A DNA stretch of 64,000 nucleotides from Robertkochia sediminum (lineage in GTDB: Bacteria > Bacteroidota > Bacteroidia > Flavobacteriales > Flavobacteriaceae), in the NCBI RefSeq assembly GCF_016786255.1, contig NZ_JADMKT010000074.1, positions 321,123 through 385,122 on the forward strand. Reading direction: 5' to 3'. How positions within the stretch are numbered: the first letter of the stretch is position 1; each line of letters starts with the position of its first letter. The position numbers and the translations under genes are program-made. The notes beneath the pieces are model-generated. The model did no database searches and had not been told where the DNA came from. It worked only from the letters and a program-made list of their open reading frames with translations. This document shows, piece by piece, positions 45,465-55,635 of this stretch.

Positions 45465-45488
45465 AAAAGGTCTTTGATCAGACCTTTT
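45465..45488 (-). terminator. Terminator overlapping the hpt-adk stop
   Basis: AAAAGGTCT (45465-45473) pairs with AGACCTTTT (45480-45488) across a 6-nt loop. The hpt-adk TGA (45480-45478) lies inside the hairpin. On the minus strand a short U-rich stretch follows. Confidence 0.7.
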
Positions 45489-46602
45489 CTTGCTTACACA
45501 GGGCATCGATAACCCGGCTCAAGCGCCCGGTGATCTCATCGATCTTCCCGATCCCGTCTACCTTATGCAATTTGTTCTGTTCGGCGTAAAAGTCCATTAC
45601 AGGAGCCGTCTTCTCATTGTATTCCTGGAAGCGATTCTTGATCTTTTCCTCATCCTGGTCGTCGCTTCGGCCACTAACTTTACCGCGCTCGAGCAACCGC
45701 TCGATGAGCACCTCGTCTTTGGCTTCCAGTGCAATGGTTCCACTGATCTCCATTTGCTTTGACTTCATAAGCTCATCAAGAGCCTTTGCCTGGGCCTGAG
45801 TTCTCGGGAAACCGTCAAAAATAAATCCGTTAGCTTCCGGATTGTTCTCCACCTCAGCTTTAAGCATGTTAATGGTCACTTCATCGGGTACCAATTCACC
45901 TTTATCTATGTATGATTTGGCCAGCACCCCTAATTCGGTTCCGTTCTTGATATTGAATCGGAAAACATCTCCTGTAGAGATGTGTTTCAGGTCGTATTTT
46001 TCTTTTAAGAAGTTTGCCTGGGTTCCTTTTCCGGCTCCCGGTTTACCGAATAGTACTAAATTGATCATAGGTTTATCGTTTAATTGATATACATCGGGTA
46101 AGTTACGTCCAAGCTCATCGTAATCCAATCCATAGCCCACAATGAACTTGTCGGAGATCTTCATTCCCACATAGTCAATATTATATTCTCCTTTATAGGT
46201 ATCGGGTTTATAGAACAACCCTGCTATTTTGAATTTCTTTACATTGATCTCTGAGAACATCGATACGAGCTCTTTTACCGTAGCGCCGCTATCGATCACA
46301 TCCTCAAGAATAACCACACTTCGCCCCGAAACACCTTCCGGCACATCGAGCAAGGTCTCTACGATCCCTGTAGACGACAGCCCGCGGTACGAACTAAGCT
46401 TAACAAAACTCACCTCGCAAGGTCCGTCGTATGCTTTAAGAAAATCAGAAGTGAACATAAACGCCCCGTTGAGCACCCCGATAAAAACCGGCACCTCATC
46501 TTTAAAATCGGCTTTCACTTCCTGAGCCATTCTGGCAATGGCTTCCTGGATCTCTTCGGCCGAAATAAACGGCTTAAAATATTTGTCGTGGAGTTTGATC
46601 AC
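45478..46602 (-). CDS. Fused hypoxanthine phosphoribosyltransferase / adenylate kinase
   Basis: One 374-aa reading frame holds two enzymes. Residues 1 to about 176 form a purine phosphoribosyltransferase (salvage of hypoxanthine to IMP), with the PRPP motif VVILEDVIDSGAT (96-108). Residues about 179-374 form an adenylate kinase (AMP + ATP to 2 ADP), with P-loop GKPGAGKGTQ (186-195), DGFPRT (263-268) and a short LID containing no Cys. An ATG at codon 179 (46068) begins MINLVLFGKPG and could start a free kinase. Similar fusions occur in Flavobacteriia. A -7 box lies 23 nt upstream. Confidence 0.95.
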   Translation of the reverse strand: MIKLHDKYFKPFISAEEIQEAIARMAQEVKADFKDEVPVFIGVLNGAFMFTSDFLKAYDGPCEVSFVKLSSYRGLSSTGIVETLLDVPEGVSGRSVVILEDVIDSGATVKELVSMFSEINVKKFKIAGLFYKPDTYKGEYNIDYVGMKISDKFIVGYGLDYDELGRNLPDVYQLNDKPMINLVLFGKPGAGKGTQANFLKEKYDLKHISTGDVFRFNIKNGTELGVLAKSYIDKGELVPDEVTINMLKAEVENNPEANGFIFDGFPRTQAQAKALDELMKSKQMEISGTIALEAKDEVLIERLLERGKVSGRSDDQDEEKIKNRFQEYNEKTAPVMDFYAEQNKLHKVDGIGKIDEITGRLSRVIDALCKQEKV

Positions 46603-48488: not shown

Positions 48489-50519
48489 ATGAATATCCTG
48501 AACACACCATTCAATACAACGTATAGCACTCCGCCATTCTCCAAAATAGAAACTGCCATGTTCAAAACAGCAATTCCTGAGGAGATCGAAAAGGCGCGAA
48601 AGGAGATCGAAGCCATCGCAAACAATACAGCCACCCCAACCTTTAGCAATACCATCGAAGCACTCGAGTTCAGTGGCGAACAGCTGGAGGTGATCACCTC
48701 CATATTCTTCAATCTGAACAATGCAGAAACCAATGCCGAAATGCAGGAACTTGCGCAGGAGATCTCGCCTGCTTTATCAGAGTTTGCCAACGACATCAGA
48801 CTCAATAACAAACTCTTTCAACGGGTAAAGGCCGTTTATAAAGGGAGAGAAGCACTCGACCTAACCCCCGAACAGCTCATGCTACTCGATAAAAAATACA
48901 AGAGCTTCGCCCGAAACGGGGCCGATCTTCCCGAAGAAAAGAAAGAAAAGCTGCGGGCTATAGATAAGGAACTCTCACGCCTGTCGCTCACCTTCGGAGA
49001 GAACGTCCTGGCAGAGACCAATAGTTACGAGCTGCATATCACCAATGAAAATGAACTGGAAGGCCTTCCGGAGTTCGCGATGGAGGCTGCTGCCGAAGAA
49101 GCCAAAAGCCGGGATAAAGAAGGATGGGTCTTTACTCTGAATTACCCCAGCTACATTCCCTTTATGACCTATGCCTCCAACAGAGCGCTGCGTCAAAAAC
49201 TACACCTTGCCTTTGGTAGCAAAGGATTTCAGGACAACGAAAGAAACAACACCGGGATCATCCTTAAGATCGTAAACCTGCGCCATGAACGCGCTCTATT
49301 GCTCGGCTACCAAAGTCACGCGCATTTTATCCTTGAAGAACGCATGGCCAAGACCCCGGAAGAGGTAAACAACTTCCTGGAAGACCTGCTCAAAAAAGCA
49401 TCTCCGGCCGCCAAAGCAGAGTATGAACAACTGGCCTCTTTCGCAAAAGACACCGACCATATCGACCAACTCGAAAAATGGGACGGAGCCTATTACACAG
49501 AAAAGTTGAAGCAGAAACTCTTTGACCTGGACGACGAAAAGCTAAAACCATATTTCCAGCTGGAACATGTGATCGACGGGGTTTTCGAGATCGCAGAAAA
49601 ACTCTACGGACTCAAATTCATCGCCTCAGAGACCATCGACGTATACCACGAAGATGTTCGGGCCTATACCGTAATGGACAGCAGCAACGACCTGGTCGCG
49701 ATATTCTATGCCGACTTCCACCCTCGTAAAGGGAAGCGCAACGGTGCATGGATGACCTCATACAAACCACAATACGTTAAGGATGGAGAGAACTCGAGGC
49801 CACATATATCTATTGTATGTAATTTCACCAAACCTACGGCAACCACCCCATCCCTGCTCACCTTTAACGAGGTAACCACCTTGTTCCATGAATTCGGTCA
49901 CGCCTTACACGGCATGCTTGCCAACACGGTTTATCCCAGTCTGAGCGGAACAAGTGTTTACTGGGATTTTGTAGAACTCCCAAGCCAGGTGATGGAAAAC
50001 TGGTGTTACGAGAAAGAAGCCCTGGAACTATTTGCACGGCACTACAAGACAGGCGAATTGATCCCGATGGAATACATCAAAAAGATCAAGGAATCGTCTA
50101 CGTTCATGGAAGGTATGCAAACCCTCAGGCAACTGAGCTTCGGATTGCTGGATATGAGCTGGCACGAGAAAGACCCATCACACATTACAGATGTTAAAGC
50201 CCATGAATCGAAGGTCTTCAAACGCACCGACCTTTACCCCGACCATGGCCAGACCTGTATGAGCACGGCCTTTTCACATATATTTCAGGGCGGGTATTCT
50301 GCGGGCTACTACAGCTATAAATGGGCCGAGGTCCTCGATGCCGACGCCTTCGAGCTTTTCCGGGAGAAAGGTATTTTCAACAGTGAGGTGGCCCAAAGTT
50401 TTATGGAACACGTACTCACCAAAGGAGGCACTGAAGACCCAATGACACTCTACAAGCGTTTTCGCGGACAAGAACCTCAGCCGGAAGCCCTTTTACGAAG
50501 AGCCGGATTAGTCAAATAA
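48489..50519 (+). CDS. M3 family metallopeptidase (oligopeptidase A / dipeptidyl carboxypeptidase type)
   Basis: M3 zinc peptidases degrade short peptides. The 676-aa product has the zinc site HEFGH (H467, E468, H471) inside FNEVTTLFHEFGHALHGML, with the downstream Glu in the DFVELPSQVMENW segment. The substrate motif GYSAGYYSYKWAEVLDADAF lies near the C-terminus. No signal peptide is seen, so it is probably cytoplasmic. Family members are called Dcp or PrlC; the exact specificity is not decided here. Its 3' end overlaps the convergent rhodanese gene by 12 nt. Confidence 0.93.
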   Translation: MNILNTPFNTTYSTPPFSKIETAMFKTAIPEEIEKARKEIEAIANNTATPTFSNTIEALEFSGEQLEVITSIFFNLNNAETNAEMQELAQEISPALSEFANDIRLNNKLFQRVKAVYKGREALDLTPEQLMLLDKKYKSFARNGADLPEEKKEKLRAIDKELSRLSLTFGENVLAETNSYELHITNENELEGLPEFAMEAAAEEAKSRDKEGWVFTLNYPSYIPFMTYASNRALRQKLHLAFGSKGFQDNERNNTGIILKIVNLRHERALLLGYQSHAHFILEERMAKTPEEVNNFLEDLLKKASPAAKAEYEQLASFAKDTDHIDQLEKWDGAYYTEKLKQKLFDLDDEKLKPYFQLEHVIDGVFEIAEKLYGLKFIASETIDVYHEDVRAYTVMDSSNDLVAIFYADFHPRKGKRNGAWMTSYKPQYVKDGENSRPHISIVCNFTKPTATTPSLLTFNEVTTLFHEFGHALHGMLANTVYPSLSGTSVYWDFVELPSQVMENWCYEKEALELFARHYKTGELIPMEYIKKIKESSTFMEGMQTLRQLSFGLLDMSWHEKDPSHITDVKAHESKVFKRTDLYPDHGQTCMSTAFSHIFQGGYSAGYYSYKWAEVLDADAFELFREKGIFNSEVAQSFMEHVLTKGGTEDPMTLYKRFRGQEPQPEALLRRAGLVK

Positions 50520-50942
50520 CCAAGCCATAAAGCTCCCCCAAAAACCTTCATCGGCTTTTTGGGGGTCCTTTTCTTTTGGAGCTTCCTTTTGCCGGGCAGC
50601 TTCCCAACGAACGTACCCTCCCTCAAGGTTATACACCTCTTTATACCCCAAAGAATCTAAAAGCGCAGAGGCATCGGCACTTCTTCTGCCGGACCTGCAA
50701 TACAACAGCAGCTTTTTATCTTTTGAGAATCGCGATACCTTTTCCACAAAATCTTCATCGTAGAAATTGATCAGGGTAGCACCGGGCACCACCCCTTCCT
50801 CCCATTCTCCGGGAGTACGAACATCGATCAGAACGCCTTCTTCCCAAAGGGTTTCAGGAACCTCTGTAATACTTATGTTATTTACTTGTGCGAATAGCCC
50901 TGCAGAAAACAACAGCGCTGCGAATAAAAAGATCTTTTTCAA
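50508..50942 (-). CDS. Exported rhodanese-like domain protein
   Basis: Rhodanese domains transfer sulfur through an active-site Cys. The 144-aa product has a signal peptide and one rhodanese domain with LIDVRTPGEWEEGVVPGAT and the active loop CRSGRRSA (C82), so it acts outside the cytoplasm. The proposed start is a TTG at 50942, because it begins a good signal peptide (LKKIFLFAALLFSAGLFAQ). The ATG-started frame at 51113 would overlap the sigma factor gene and its promoter region. A short acidic tail ends in WLFD. Confidence 0.85.
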   Translation of the reverse strand: MKKIFLFAALLFSAGLFAQVNNISITEVPETLWEEGVLIDVRTPGEWEEGVVPGATLINFYDEDFVEKVSRFSKDKKLLLYCRSGRRSADASALLDSLGYKEVYNLEGGYVRWEAARQKEAPKEKDPQKADEGFWGSFMAWLFD

Positions 50943-51023: not shown

Positions 51024-51575
51024 ATGGGGAAAACAAAACTGGATCCATCTCAATGGGTAGATCGTTATGCCGACTACCTGTACAACTATACCATCTCCAA
51101 GGTAAGCGATCAAACCCTTGCTGAAGACCTGGTCCAGGAAACCTTTTTGGCCGGGTTAAAATCGGCTTCCGGGTTTAAGGGAGACGCCTCTGAACGCACC
51201 TGGCTAACGGCCATTTTAAAACGAAAGATCATCGATCATTACAGAAGAGCGAATTCCGGAAAAGGCAAAGTCGAGGTAAAGATCAATTACACCGACGACG
51301 ATCAGGAGGGCGACTGGCTGGAAGAAAGGGCTGCAGACAAACACCGGGACAATATCGAAGACCAGCTGCAAAATGAAGAACTGGGAATTGCCATAGAGCG
51401 GTGTGTATCGCAATTACCCGAAAAACAAGCCAGGATCTTCAGGATGAAGACCATCGAAGGTATGGAAACGGAAGACATTTGTAAAGAACTTCAGATCACT
51501 CCGTCTAATCTGTGGGTGATCATTCACCGGGCACGGACAACCTTAATGAATTGCCTGGAAAAAAATTGGTTTTAA
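51024..51575 (+). CDS. ECF-type RNA polymerase sigma factor
   Basis: ECF sigma factors direct RNA polymerase to stress or envelope promoters and are usually held by an anti-sigma factor. The 183-aa product has region 2 (about 15-85, AEDLVQETFLAGLKSASGF) and region 4 (about 130-180, LPEKQARIFRMKTIEGMETE and a helix-turn-helix), ending MNCLEKNWF. An acidic linker (YTDDDQEGDW) joins them. A 76-aa zinc-binding anti-sigma-like gene follows after 27 nt. Upstream, TTTG at 50960 and TAATTTAA 19 nt later form a partial promoter match. Confidence 0.92.
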   Translation: MGKTKLDPSQWVDRYADYLYNYTISKVSDQTLAEDLVQETFLAGLKSASGFKGDASERTWLTAILKRKIIDHYRRANSGKGKVEVKINYTDDDQEGDWLEERAADKHRDNIEDQLQNEELGIAIERCVSQLPEKQARIFRMKTIEGMETEDICKELQITPSNLWVIIHRARTTLMNCLEKNWF

Positions 51576-51602
51576 CTAACAACACCTAATCAGTAACAAA
51601 CC

Positions 51603-51833
51603 ATGCTAATAGACTGTACCAAAGCAGCAGAAATATGCAATAAAGCGCAATACCGGGAGGCGGGATCCTGGAAGGTCTTTAAACTAAAAATACACCTCAT
51701 GTATTGCCCTACGTGCCGAAAGCACGCCGCCAAAAATGGCAAGCTTACTAAGCTGTGCTCTAAGGCCAAACTGCAGTGCATGGATCCTGAAAAGAAGAAA
51801 AAGATCAAAGAAAAGATCGCTTCCAGATCCTAG
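51603..51833 (+). CDS. Minimal zinc anti-sigma-like protein
   Basis: The 76-aa product has the ligand pattern C5-x25-H31-x3-C35-x2-C38. This is the HxxxCxxC signature of zinc anti-sigma (ZAS) domains, with the same spacing as RsrA of Streptomyces. A basic Lys-rich tail ends the protein. There is no transmembrane segment, and the sequence is much shorter than membrane anti-sigma factors. It is co-directional with the ECF gene and probably its partner; binding and control of the sigma factor are inference. Its stop overlaps the convergent UbiA-like gene by 4 nt. Confidence 0.8.
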   Translation: MLIDCTKAAEICNKAQYREAGSWKVFKLKIHLMYCPTCRKHAAKNGKLTKLCSKAKLQCMDPEKKKKIKEKIASRS

Positions 51834-52642
51834 AGCAGCCATAGCAGCCCCAGCCAGATAAGCGGCAAACTCTCTACCAGCAGCCCGGTATAATACCGGT
51901 GTCGCTTGCGACTGGAAGCATAGAGTAGCACAAGGGAAAGCAACACGAGCACCCCTTCTGTATACCACTTATCTTCGAGATAATCCATTTCGAAAACCAC
52001 TCCCAGGAGCCAGAAAAGCAAGAGAAAACAATAACCCAAAAGCTTAGCACCCCGCACACCGAACTGCTGCGGTATGGTATACAACCCCGGCTGGTCCAGC
52101 CCCAGGTCCCTGATCTCGAAGGGAATGGTTATCGCCAGCACAAAGAGCATGCGCCGCACCACTTCAAGAGCCACTGCGGCATCAACAGGCAACTCTACCA
52201 ACACCACAGGAAGCACAACAGTACACAAGGCCCACACCAAGGCCACCACATAAACCTTGATCCCCCGCATATTCCTGATATTACCCTTTAGCCTTTGCAC
52301 GGGATACACATAAAAAAATACCAGCAATCCAACCAGGGCAGCAAGCGCTATGGCCCGGAGCGAGAAATCTTTTAAAAAATACAAGGCAATGATGAAATTA
52401 AGCACACTAAAAATCTGCATCCCCTTGTAATATTTACCCTTTACAGAAATAAAATCGCCTGCCAAAGGCGCGTATTTGATGAAGTTATAACCTACGACCG
52501 AACCAAAATACAGCGCGGCATAGACATAGAGGGGCGGGTCGAAGTCAAAATACACTCCTGTAACCCCGCAAAGGGCAGCTACAGCCAGCGCTACATGCAG
52601 GCTACTTTCTATATACAGATCTACGATCTTTTTAAGCATCAT
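51830..52642 (-). CDS. UbiA-like polytopic membrane protein
   Basis: The 270-aa product has eight or so hydrophobic segments and the look of the UbiA prenyltransferase superfamily, which attaches prenyl chains in the membrane. It keeps a second Asp motif (IRDLGLDQPGL). The first, usually N/DDxxD, reads YNFIKYAP, so classic prenyl transfer is doubtful. The ATG at 52642 is preferred over a GTG at 52657; 52639 is also possible. It is not tied to a quinone or haem operon here. It diverges from gcvP. Confidence 0.75.
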   Translation of the reverse strand: MMLKKIVDLYIESSLHVALAVAALCGVTGVYFDFDPPLYVYAALYFGSVVGYNFIKYAPLAGDFISVKGKYYKGMQIFSVLNFIIALYFLKDFSLRAIALAALVGLLVFFYVYPVQRLKGNIRNMRGIKVYVVALVWALCTVVLPVVLVELPVDAAVALEVVRRMLFVLAITIPFEIRDLGLDQPGLYTIPQQFGVRGAKLLGYCFLLLFWLLGVVFEMDYLEDKWYTEGVLVLLSLVLLYASSRKRHRYYTGLLVESLPLIWLGLLWLL

Positions 52643-52739
52643 CTTGGTCGGGATCACCCTTGTTTAACCTCCATTAGCAAAGGTCTGAAAGTTTCGTTAA
52701 AGCCTTATCAAAAGTACTTTTTAAAACCAATTTAATATG

Positions 52740-52747
52740 TACTTTTG
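52740..52747 (+). promoter_or_regulatory. Candidate -7 box of gcvP
   Basis: TACTTTTG matches TAnnTTTG and ends 35 nt before the gcvP ATG. A T-rich stretch 18 nt upstream (TTTT at 52718-52721) is a possible weak -33 element. No glycine-riboswitch-like structure was recognised in the short leader. Confidence 0.5.
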
Positions 52748-52782
52748 CGCAAAATAACATAACACATTATTAGTCACTTATA

Positions 52783-55635
52783 ATGAGAACAGATTCTTTT
52801 GCTATTCGCCACATAGGCCCGAAAAAAGAAGATCTTTCAAAAATGCTGAAAACTGTAGGCGTAGCCGACATCGATCAGCTTATATACGAGACCTTCCCCG
52901 ATGGTATCAGACTAAAAAAAGGACTGGATCTTCCAGAAGCCATGTCTGAATATGAGTACCTCTCACACATACAGGAATTGGGAGACAAGAACAAGGTATT
53001 CCGTTCATTTATCGGACTGGGTTATCACGAAGCTATTCTTCCTTCGGTGATCAAGAGAAACATTCTTGAAAATCCGGGGTGGTATACGGCGTACACGCCT
53101 TACCAGGCAGAGATCGCACAAGGCCGTCTCGAAGCGCTGCTCAACTTCCAAACCGTAATAAGTGACCTTACCGGAATGGAGATCGCCAACGCCTCATTAC
53201 TCGATGAGAGTACGGCTGCTGCAGAGGCTATGACCATGCTATTCAGCGCGAGAAGCCGCCAGCAAAAGAAAGCAGGGGTTGTAAAATTCTTTGTTTCTGA
53301 AGAGGTATTACCTCAAACCCTTTCTGTTCTTCAAACCAGAGCCCTTCCTTTAGGCATTGAGCTGGTTATTGGAGATCACCGTACCCTGGAACTTTCTTCA
53401 GATTACTACGGTGCCTTACTCCAATATCCGGGGAAAAGCGGTGAAGTTTTTGACTACAAAACCTTCACAGCCAATGCCAACGAAATGGACATCAAAGTTG
53501 CTGTTGCTGCCGATATCCTGAGTCTTGTATCACTAACTCCTCCGGGAGAATGGGGCGCAGAGGTTGTTGTAGGTACCTCACAGCGATTCGGTATCCCACT
53601 GGGTTACGGAGGACCTCACGCAGCATTCTTTGCTACTAAAGAAGCATACAAAAGAAGCATCCCGGGAAGAATTATCGGAGTTACCAGAGACACCGATGGC
53701 AATTTCGCTATGAGAATGGCACTGCAAACCCGCGAGCAACATATCAAAAGAGATAAGGCTACTTCTAATATCTGTACCGCCCAGGTGTTACTGGCTGTTA
53801 TGGCAGGTATGTATGCCGTTTACCACGGTCCTGAAGGCCTTAAATACATCGCTCAGAAAGTCCACAAAGCGACTACCACCCTGGTAGCTGCTCTTGAAGA
53901 ACTAGGATACGAGCAGCTCAACGGTGCGTTCTTTGACACCATTCGTGTTAAAGCCGACGCCGAGAGCGTAAAGAACATCGCCGAACTTCAAAAGGTAAAC
54001 TTCTATTATCCGGACGAGAGTACCGTAGCGATCGCACTTAATGAAACCGTTTCTGTTAAAGACCTGAACACCATCGTTCAGATCTTTGCCGACGCAGCCG
54101 GAAAAAATACCGTAACCATTACCGACATTCAGGATACCATCGCGATCCCTGAAACACTGCAAAGAACAAGCGCTTTCCTTCAGAACGAGGTCTTTAATGC
54201 CTACCATTCTGAAACAGAACTAATGCGCTACATCAAAAAGCTTGAGCGCAAAGACCTTTCGCTGAATCACTCCATGATCTCCCTCGGATCTTGCACCATG
54301 AAGCTTAACGCTGCATCTGAAATGCTTCCCCTCAGCAATCCGCAGTGGGGTAACATTCACCCTTTTGCACCGGTAGATCAGGCTCAGGGATATCACGAAG
54401 TACTCCAGGAACTTGAACACCAGTTAAACGTGATCACCGGTTTCGATGGCACTTCCCTGCAACCCAACTCAGGAGCACAGGGCGAGTATGCCGGACTCAT
54501 GGTGATCAGAGCATACCACCTTTCTAGAGGTGATGCCCACCGCCATATTTGCCTTATCCCATCGTCTGCCCACGGTACCAACCCGGCTTCTGCTGTTATG
54601 GCAGGAATGAAGGTGGTTGTAACCAAAACCGACGATCAGGGGAATATCGATGTTGCCGACCTGAAAGAAAAAGCAGAGAAGTACAAAGATGAACTGGCTG
54701 CCCTTATGGTAACCTACCCTTCAACCCACGGGGTATTCGAATCGTCTATTAAAGAGATCACTCAGATCATTCACGATAACGGAGGACAAGTATATATGGA
54801 TGGTGCCAACATGAACGCTCAGGTTGGACTTACCAATCCGGCAACCATCGGAGCCGATGTTTGTCACCTCAACCTTCACAAGACCTTTGCCATTCCTCAC
54901 GGAGGTGGAGGCCCCGGTGTTGGACCTATTTGTGTTGCCGGTCACCTGGCAGAATTCCTTCCGACAAACCCTGTGATCACCACAGGAGGAGAGAAGGCCA
55001 TTACCGCTATTTCTGCAGCTCCTTGGGGTAGTGCACTGGTTTGCCTGATCTCTTACGGATACATCAAAATGCTCGGTGCTGAAGGCCTGAAGCGATCTAC
55101 AGAAATGGCGATCCTCAATGCCAACTACATCAAGAACCGACTTGAAGGTAATTACGATGTGCTCTACAAAGGAGAGTGTGGAAGAGCCGCTCACGAGCTT
55201 ATCATTGAGTGTCGTCCCTTCAAGATGAACGGGATCGAGGTTACCGATATCGCCAAGCGTCTTATGGATTACGGATTCCACGCGCCAACGGTTTCTTTCC
55301 CTGTTGCGGGAACCATGATGATCGAACCTACCGAAAGCGAAAGTCTGGCAGAGCTTGACAAATTCTGTGATGCTATGATCGCCATTCGTCAGGAGATCGA
55401 AGAAGCTGTTGCAGAAGACGGGAATAATGTTCTTAAAAACGCACCACACACCCTTAAAATGGTGACCGCGAACGAATGGAACTTCCCTTACAGCCGCGAA
55501 AAGGCCGCCTATCCTCTTGCTTATGTTGCAGAAAACAAATTCTGGCCAACAGTAAGAAGGGTCGACGAAGCCTTTGGGGATCGTAACCTGATGTGTACCT
55601 GCGCGCCAATTGAAGAATACGCAGAAGCGCTATAA
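52783..55635 (+). CDS. gcvP: Glycine dehydrogenase (decarboxylating), P protein
   Basis: The P protein of the glycine cleavage system decarboxylates glycine and passes the aminomethyl group to the lipoyl H protein. The 950-aa product is the single-chain form with two GcvP halves. The PLP lysine is K700 in [15 protein letters not shown]. Family segments include [26 protein letters not shown] and [10 protein letters not shown]. gcvT and gcvH are not in the window. A terminator follows. Confidence 0.97.

Follow-up and report, generated by a model that had tools for sequence, protein, structure and literature searches.

A putative cytoplasmic zinc-type anti-sigma factor encoded beside an ECF sigma factor in Robertkochia sediminum, and its orthologues lacking two ligand residues

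The sigma factor gene and its neighbourhood

We analysed a 64,000-nucleotide stretch (the window) of the 3.5 Mb genome of Robertkochia sediminum, a close relative of Robertkochia marina (their ECF sigma factors are 83% identical). Two adjacent genes on the forward strand are considered here. The first (51024..51575, +) encodes an ECF sigma factor of 183 amino acids with a sigma2 and a sigma4 domain, both above the Pfam cut-offs (Sigma70_r2, 2.3e-14; Sigma70_r4_2, 3.9e-13). Its best NCBIfam profile, TIGR02943, scores 144.1 bits, below the curated cut-off of 162.2. The second gene (51603..51833, +) starts after a gap of 27 bp and encodes a 76-residue candidate anti-sigma factor with the motif C5-x25-H31-x3-C35-x2-C38. 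The gene lengths and strands in a preliminary description of this locus were correct, as was the residue spacing, which is exact. The four motif residues occupy the places of the RsrA zinc ligands: Cys5 (codon 51615..51617, +) that of RsrA Cys11, His31 (51693..51695, +) that of His37, Cys35 (51705..51707, +) that of Cys41 and Cys38 (51714..51716, +) that of Cys44. A further cysteine, Cys12 (51636..51638, +), falls at the place of RsrA Leu18, counting from Cys11. The sigma factor has cysteines of its own at the start of sigma4 (Cys127; 51402..51404, +), within sigma4 (Cys153; 51480..51482, +) and in the C-terminal 'CLEKNWF' end (Cys177; 51552..51554, +).

A rhodanese gene (50508..50942, -; Pfam Rhodanese), with a TTG start at 50942 and a signal peptide recognised by eye, is divergent from the ECF gene. 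Convergent with the pair is a membrane protein gene (51830..52657, -) that appears UbiA-like by eye, although Pfam and NCBIfam scans of it gave no match; gcvP lies beyond it. The UbiA-like gene is a useful synteny marker, since in tblastn searches of 39 flavobacterial loci it stood beside the pair in 37 and gcvP was present in 36. The exported rhodanese is divergent from the ECF gene in 18 of the 39 loci (17 of 38 when L009 and L037, which are one organism, are counted once; L and G numbers denote our loci and genomes). The divergent rhodanese of the preliminary description is present in the window, but is a neighbour in only part of the family. These counts also overturn a tblastn result at 1e-6 in which it had seemed a rare neighbour, confined to the window and one relative. 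Its recurrence shows no regulation, and it is a candidate member of the switch only. Elsewhere in the window, a 374-residue frame (45478-46602, -) appears by eye to be a fusion of a hypoxanthine phosphoribosyltransferase followed by an adenylate kinase, with tblastn matches in two loci, L037 and L043, of R. marina and Muriicola.

When the sequences preceding the ECF gene at the 39 loci were inspected by eye, no ECF-type promoter common to them stood out, and autoregulation was rejected as a candidate on this basis. A TAnnTTTG-like housekeeping box was seen by eye 20-30 bp before the ECF ATG in many of them, which suggests that in many relatives transcription of the operon begins at a promoter of the housekeeping type. 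Upstream of the UbiA-like gene (e.g., in L024 and L238) we noted a strongly conserved promoter block, in which two GTTnnnAAC-like halves lie 20 bp from each other and a TAnnTTTG box immediately precedes the start codon; the block is degenerate in the window's genus (window 52657-52783). A fuzzy search matched this block 73 times, in 72 of 297 loci, some of which are two pieces of one genome. When it was searched as a regulon motif, 40 sites were listed, distributed over 27 of 60 genomes; a reversed control pattern gave 13. However, 13 of the 15 mismatch-free sites were at this locus, none was in the window's own genome, and three other sites that were read (L298, L302 and L303) had no common gene context. 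The block was therefore rejected as operator or regulon evidence for this ECF factor. An ECF/anti-sigma pair of Flavobacterium psychrophilum (THC0290_1774/1773) is reported to be under a starvation-induced CGT-box promoter (PMC9723704); it could not be matched to the window pair.

Outside Flavobacteriaceae, protein families were tallied for 122 of the 139 nearest neighbours at 48 of 49 loci. The commonest was MNIO (MbnB/TglH/ChrH; 7), followed by AhpC-TSA, tRNA_anti-like and DUF6789 (4 each), SelR (3) and Redoxin (3, which may overlap AhpC-TSA). Thioredoxin, DUF547, GT87, Cytochrome_P460 and two thioredoxin-like families occurred twice each, and PMSR once among many singles. The thiol, peroxide and methionine-repair flavour of these neighbours, in a tally without a background control, is suggestive only. 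A search for an MNIO gene in the window's genome found none, and a bufferin/copper link in this genome was rejected for that reason. Two tandem msrB (SelR) genes lie elsewhere in the same genome (G000:C69:271237-271996), and by analogy with Neisseria and Haemophilus they are possible targets of the sigma factor.

Conservation of the pair and predicted fold of the small protein

The small gene was found in 241 of 299 genomes drawn from Flavobacteriaceae, and in 214 of the 249 good assemblies. Among 20 listed genomes without it, 13 have a size of 2.0 Mb or less. We tested these 20, out of the 58 genomes that lack the small gene, for the ECF factor, and none had it at E <= 1e-20, while all five positive controls did. 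Seven genomes of the family (G113, G129, G147, G204, G244, G251 and G315) each gave two small-protein matches. For a closer comparison we used 158 loci: 120 from the matches listed in the 299-genome search, 30 from the 33 matching genomes of a separate search, and 8 named loci from the search for ECF relatives described below. One of these (L036) belongs to another family of the order, and L040 and L228 are identical rows, one organism represented twice. The ECF gene is directly upstream on the same strand in all 158 loci, with a gap of -25 to +148 bp, such that the small protein is encoded next to its ECF factor, as in ZAS anti-sigma factors.

The association extends beyond the flavobacteria. 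A relative of the small protein was found on the same strand of the fetched stretch in 64 of the best 80 of 523 ECF relatives (9 in the flavobacterial clade); among those 64, the partner is not adjacent to the ECF gene in L053, L069, L085 and L111, and scores are weak in L111 and L112. An alignment (A2) was built from the window protein, nine loci of its clade and 49 other relatives, leaving out L053, L069, L076, L107, L111 and L112. All 49 relatives outside the flavobacterial clade keep C-x25-H-x3-C-x2-C, and all 59 members match NF052368 ('anti-sigma factor family') at E <= 0.001. The RsrA-like spacing is thus the norm in this family.

Within the window, the motif occurs in only 1 of 468 stop-free stretches of at least 50 amino acids (six frames, whole window), and it appeared in 64 of 200,000 shuffles of the small protein's own letters. 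A Pfam scan of the 76-residue protein found no family. Its best NCBIfam profile is NF052368 (E = 3.1e-9), at 36.5 bits against a cut-off of 50. When the genome was scanned with this profile, the window protein scored 36.4 bits, again below the cut-off, and 1 of 14 control genomes gave a match, none above the cut-off. The likeness to the zinc site of RsrA in the preliminary description thus holds for the spacing. It is not special to this protein, however: the spacing is family-wide and was already in print for MseR (PMC2893595), and the RsrA model TIGR03988 gives 12.9 bits (E = 0.087) against a cut-off of 62.5. Nor is the protein unusually small, as had been suggested, since HrsE has 67 residues (PMC7907618) and the orthologues at the 158 loci have 74-97, with starts chosen by script. 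The N-terminal ligand place is Cys in the window and in 154 of the 158 loci, which makes the site CHCC, as in RsrA, and not HHCC.

The AlphaFold2 model of the window protein (pLDDT 90.3) has four helices (residues 5-16, 22-34, 36-54 and 62-75). H31-x3-C35-x2-C38 spans helices 2 and 3, and a three-helix bundle is followed by a fourth helix, both as in ZAS proteins, although the matches of the model to anti-sigma domains have E > 1. Foldseek ranks 1-7 are RsiW, RslA, ChrR and MucA chains (E = 1.3-4.5). The VIA-align list is led by MucA (Z = 6.5 and 6.4), RsiW (5.7) and RslA (5.4) over about 53-62 residues, with all Z values below 8; further down are an unrelated ribosomal chain and RskA (both Z = 4.6) and ChrR (Z = 3.3, rmsd 11.2). 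Each of these values is weak singly, and the argument is that anti-sigma domains fill the leading ranks for the predicted model. A sequence search of solved structures with alignment A1 found no match up to E = 10.

Loss of two ligand residues and the cysteines of the sigma factor

Residues 5, 12, 31, 35 and 38 read CCHCC in 119 of the 158 loci, CCRCT in 31, CIHCC in 3, KCRCT in 2, and CCRCS, YCRCT and FCRCT in one each. H31 and C38 are therefore both kept in 122 loci and both lost in 36, with no mixed case; H31 is replaced by Arg in all 36, and C38 by Thr in 35 and Ser in 1. As weaker, unlisted matches of the 299-genome search lie outside the 158 loci, 36 of 158 is not a family rate. Conservation of the Cys/His residues in orthologues had been named in advance as a check on the proposed switch. 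It holds at all five loci of the window's genus, the window included, which carry the full site, as it does in the 122 loci overall, but fails in the remaining 36. C35 is present in 158 of 158 loci, and both C35 and C12 are present in all 36 zinc-less loci. C5 is lost in only four loci, all of the Arg31/Thr38 class, such that C5 and C35 are both kept in 32 of 36. C12 is found in 155 of the 158 orthologues and in none of the 49 other A2 relatives (Ile 20, Val 15, Met 5, Leu 4, Ala 3, Ser 2), all 49 of which have His at the place of H31. Residue Leu18 of RsrA belongs to the hydrophobic core (PMC4960319). Places 9, 34, 37 and 40 also differ between the two classes, as if packing had taken the place of zinc.

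The zinc-less protein of Kordia (L038) is predicted to have the same four helices (pLDDT 85.7), and scores 21.3 bits with NF052368. The best Foldseek matches of its model are MucA chains (E = 1.6, probability 0.94). MucA is an anti-sigma factor that is not known to carry this zinc motif; the match does not separate the classes, since MucA also tops the VIA-align list of the zinc-site model. The absence of the zinc site from 36 of 158 loci implies that zinc is not needed for what all orthologues share, and it is doubtful that zinc is the sensor for the family as a whole. C5 and C35 could still work in the 32 zinc-less proteins that keep both, as a Cys44His form of RsrA is still responsive to oxidation (PMC4960319).

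To characterise how the zinc-less class is spread, we compared it with a gcvP tree. Its 69 rows comprise 35 zinc-less loci, the thirty-sixth being on a contig that is too short, together with 34 hand-picked others; for one further locus, L283, there was no gcvP match. All of our trees were quick reconstructions with many unresolved forks. On the gcvP tree the zinc-less label needs 11 changes, at least 5 of them forced by well-supported branches, and a single zinc-less clade is rejected (p-AU = 1.2e-52). The ECF tree of 158 rows also needs 11 changes, at least 2 of them forced; an ECF tree of 68 rows needs 7, and there a single clade is rejected more weakly than with gcvP (p = 0.015). Single vertical origin of the class was therefore rejected. 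The tree of the anti-sigma factor itself needs only 2 changes when seven trait columns are removed (columns chosen once the differences between the classes were known), but a tree of its C-terminal part needs 10. When gcvP distance is equal, the zinc-less rows resemble one another more than they resemble the other rows, and they do so chiefly in the N-terminal half: the residual difference is 0.089 there, 0.014 in the C-terminal half and 0.012 in the ECF factor. As far as gcvP follows the organisms, these comparisons rule out a single change passed on vertically; the zinc-less form arose repeatedly, by parallel change around the site, or spread by exchange of the gene or part of it.

The cysteines of the sigma factor are nearly invariant. 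Across 158 flavobacterial loci and 52 others in which a small partner was detected, residues 127 and 177 are Cys in all 210 and residue 153 in 206. The window's genome has five further ECF-like loci, none of which has Cys at any of these three places. Four verrucomicrobial loci in which no small anti-sigma gene was detected (L065, L072, L078 and L089) lack both C127 and C177. In L078, the gene after the ECF gene encodes, by eye, a STAS-domain protein. The three cysteines are all kept in L046, whose contig ends after the ECF gene, and in L050 and L094, where no small gene was detected. None of the three is present in three distant ECF factors (L107, L112 and L113; 28-30% identical), each of which is followed by a small H-x3-C-x2-C protein. 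A sigma-factor cysteine pair is known from SigK of Mycobacterium tuberculosis, in which a C133/C183 disulfide, when oxidised, stabilises the SigK-RskA complex (PMC7509140). The same paper reports a cysteine pair of this type in 94% of ECF18, 56% of ECF19 and <2% of other families. C127 and C177 are 50 residues apart, as are C133 and C183, but the phmmer match of the window ECF factor to SigK spans residues 11-103 only. A contact shared by RpoE R178 and SigK L177 (PMC7406223) provides a second reference point, as RpoE R178 aligns with R171 of the window ECF factor, provided that the chain carries three extra residues. From the spacing and this one aligned position, and not from a full alignment, we infer that C177 probably occupies the place of SigK C183.

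Interpretation and comparison with known systems

The gene pair almost surely encodes an ECF sigma factor and its cytoplasmic anti-sigma factor. The reading of the small protein as an anti-sigma factor follows from the unbroken synteny, the joint absence of both genes from the 20 genomes tested, the ranking of fold matches, NF052368 as its best profile, and its relatives MseR and HrsE, which inhibit their sigma factors. On these grounds, and with the caveat that profile and fold scores are weak, the cytoplasmic zinc-type anti-sigma factor proposed in the preliminary description is upheld; its suggestion of a redox switch is supported in part, since not all orthologues have the zinc site. The small protein is best explained as a flavobacterial relative of MseR and HrsE.

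As a whole, the locus is best explained by a cytoplasmic class I anti-sigma factor that releases its ECF factor through thiol chemistry, to which we assign a probability of roughly 0.7. The 76-residue protein would be dedicated to the upstream ECF factor. Helices 1-3 (residues 5-54) would form the zinc bundle and helix 4 (62-75) would complete a clamp. Class I anti-sigma factors bind sigma4 through helix 1 and sigma2 through helix 4 (PMC7406223); docking of this kind would keep the ECF factor off RNA polymerase. By analogy with the homologues, C5, H31, C35 and C38 of the window protein would hold one zinc. Oxidation of C5/C35/C38, or another thiol-reactive or metal insult, may expel the zinc, with C12 as an extra thiol in the core; zinc expulsion together with a disulfide would allow the bundle to repack and the ECF factor to be released. 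Release by thiol chemistry is a likely signal step, judging from the homologous systems.

An alternative that overlaps with this explanation is that zinc is only structural and that the sensor is the sigma factor, in which a SigK-type C127/C177 disulfide alters the grip of the anti-sigma factor. It would explain why zinc could be lost, and it draws on the near-invariance of the sigma cysteines, their absence from the other ECF-like loci of the genome, the SigK-like spacing, and the lack of C127 and C177 in the four verrucomicrobial loci without a detected anti-sigma gene. However, the equivalence to SigK does not come from a full alignment, and the link between these cysteines and a ZAS partner is not strict, as all three are present in L050 and L094, where no small gene was detected, and L107, L112 and L113 have the small neighbour and none of the three. 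The RsrA-type thiols of the anti-sigma factor are conserved too. We consider the sigma factor as sensor rather unlikely. A slightly better, though still tentative, case can be made that both partners contribute. C5 and C12 lie on helix 1, which is expected to meet the cysteine-bearing sigma4. From the sequences, the pair may be a two-sided thiol switch, with conserved, redox-competent cysteines on the sigma factor (C127/C153/C177) and on the anti-sigma factor, in which the gain of C12 made zinc dispensable and the R31/T38 form arose several times or spread between genera at a fixed locus. If so, nature would have uncoupled thiol sensing from zinc within a switch of the RsrA type.

It is improbable that the signal at the thiol site is a metal (e.g., copper taking the place of zinc) or some other thiol-reactive stress, and not reactive oxygen. 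MNIO enzymes, the commonest neighbour family outside Flavobacteriaceae, make bufferins that chelate copper (PMC12452194), which would fit a metal signal; but that tally lacks a background control, no MNIO gene was found in the window's genome, and the anti-sigma genes named for bufferin clusters in that source are of the NrsF kind. Least probable by far is that the small protein is a chance neighbour or a co-activator and not the anti-sigma factor of this ECF factor. The lack of a Pfam family, the NF052368 score below its curated cut-off and the weak fold matches would permit this. They are set against invariant synteny and joint absence, anti-sigma domains at the head of the fold matches, and the inhibition demonstrated for the relatives MseR (PMC2893595) and HrsE (PMC7907618).

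The preferred reading, thiol-driven release by a class I anti-sigma factor, provides a likely function for a gene pair whose small member is widespread in Flavobacteriaceae. Furthermore, the orthologues that have the zinc ligands and those that lack them, which mostly occupy one chromosomal position, could be compared directly as natural variants in harmless marine bacteria, to ask whether zinc is a sensor, a brake or a scaffold; the sigma partner also has near-invariant cysteines of its own.

The closest described counterparts include small zinc-type anti-sigma factors of Neisseria and Haemophilus. In Neisseria meningitidis, MseR (NMB2145) is encoded directly downstream of the ECF factor sigmaE (NMB2144), and its C4, H30, C34 and C37 are described as matching RsrA C11/H37/C41/C44 exactly (PMC2893595). 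MseR inhibits its sigma factor, and for this C34 is essential, C4 and C37 are important and H30 is dispensable (PMC2893595). In contrast to the window, where we found no such link, sigmaE is autoregulated and controls msrA/msrB (PMC2893595). Expression of sigmaE was reported as unchanged by oxidative stimuli in meningococci (PMC2893595), whereas the Haemophilus paper names H2O2 as a reported inducer of the Neisseria response (PMC7907618). Relative to MseR, the extra C12 and the zinc-less class are features of the flavobacterial set; the Neisseria sequence itself is outside the alignment. HrsE of Haemophilus influenzae is likewise cytoplasmic and co-transcribed with its ECF factor, has conserved ZAS residues, and inhibits RpoE2, which controls msrAB (PMC7907618). 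Unlike the neighbourhood in the window, that system is near msrAB, and rpoE2 expression is raised by HOCl and H2O2 (PMC7907618).

Streptomyces sigmaR-RsrA shares the ligand spacing and the CHCC type, which was found to be required for release on oxidation (PMC4960319). Zinc makes the RsrA complex tight, oxidation is limited by zinc release, and the trigger disulfide joins Cys11 to Cys41 or Cys44 (PMC4960319). RsrA is longer, however, with 105 residues (PMC4960319), whereas the window protein has 76, scores well below the cut-off of the RsrA model, and has Cys12 where RsrA, by count, has Leu18. M. tuberculosis SigK-RskA resembles the window pair in the sigma-factor cysteines 50 residues apart, but the window's ECF factor has a third cysteine (C153), and RskA is regulated by proteolysis (PMC7509140) and does not rely on a zinc motif (PMC7406223). 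Presence and absence of the zinc motif within or between related anti-sigma groups has already been reported, including for AS33-1 and AS33-2 (PMC7406223). A literature search, with most subscription journals outside its scope, found no work on the zinc-less form and none that could be recognised as describing this pair. Compared with the variation in AS33-1 and AS33-2, the present case concerns one orthologue, located mostly at one syntenic place, in which two residues are strictly swapped together while C12 and C35 are retained. Zinc-less members of anti-sigma groups are thus known as such, but the all-or-none loss of H31 and C38 with C12 and C35 kept, and the accompanying sigma4 cysteines, may be new.
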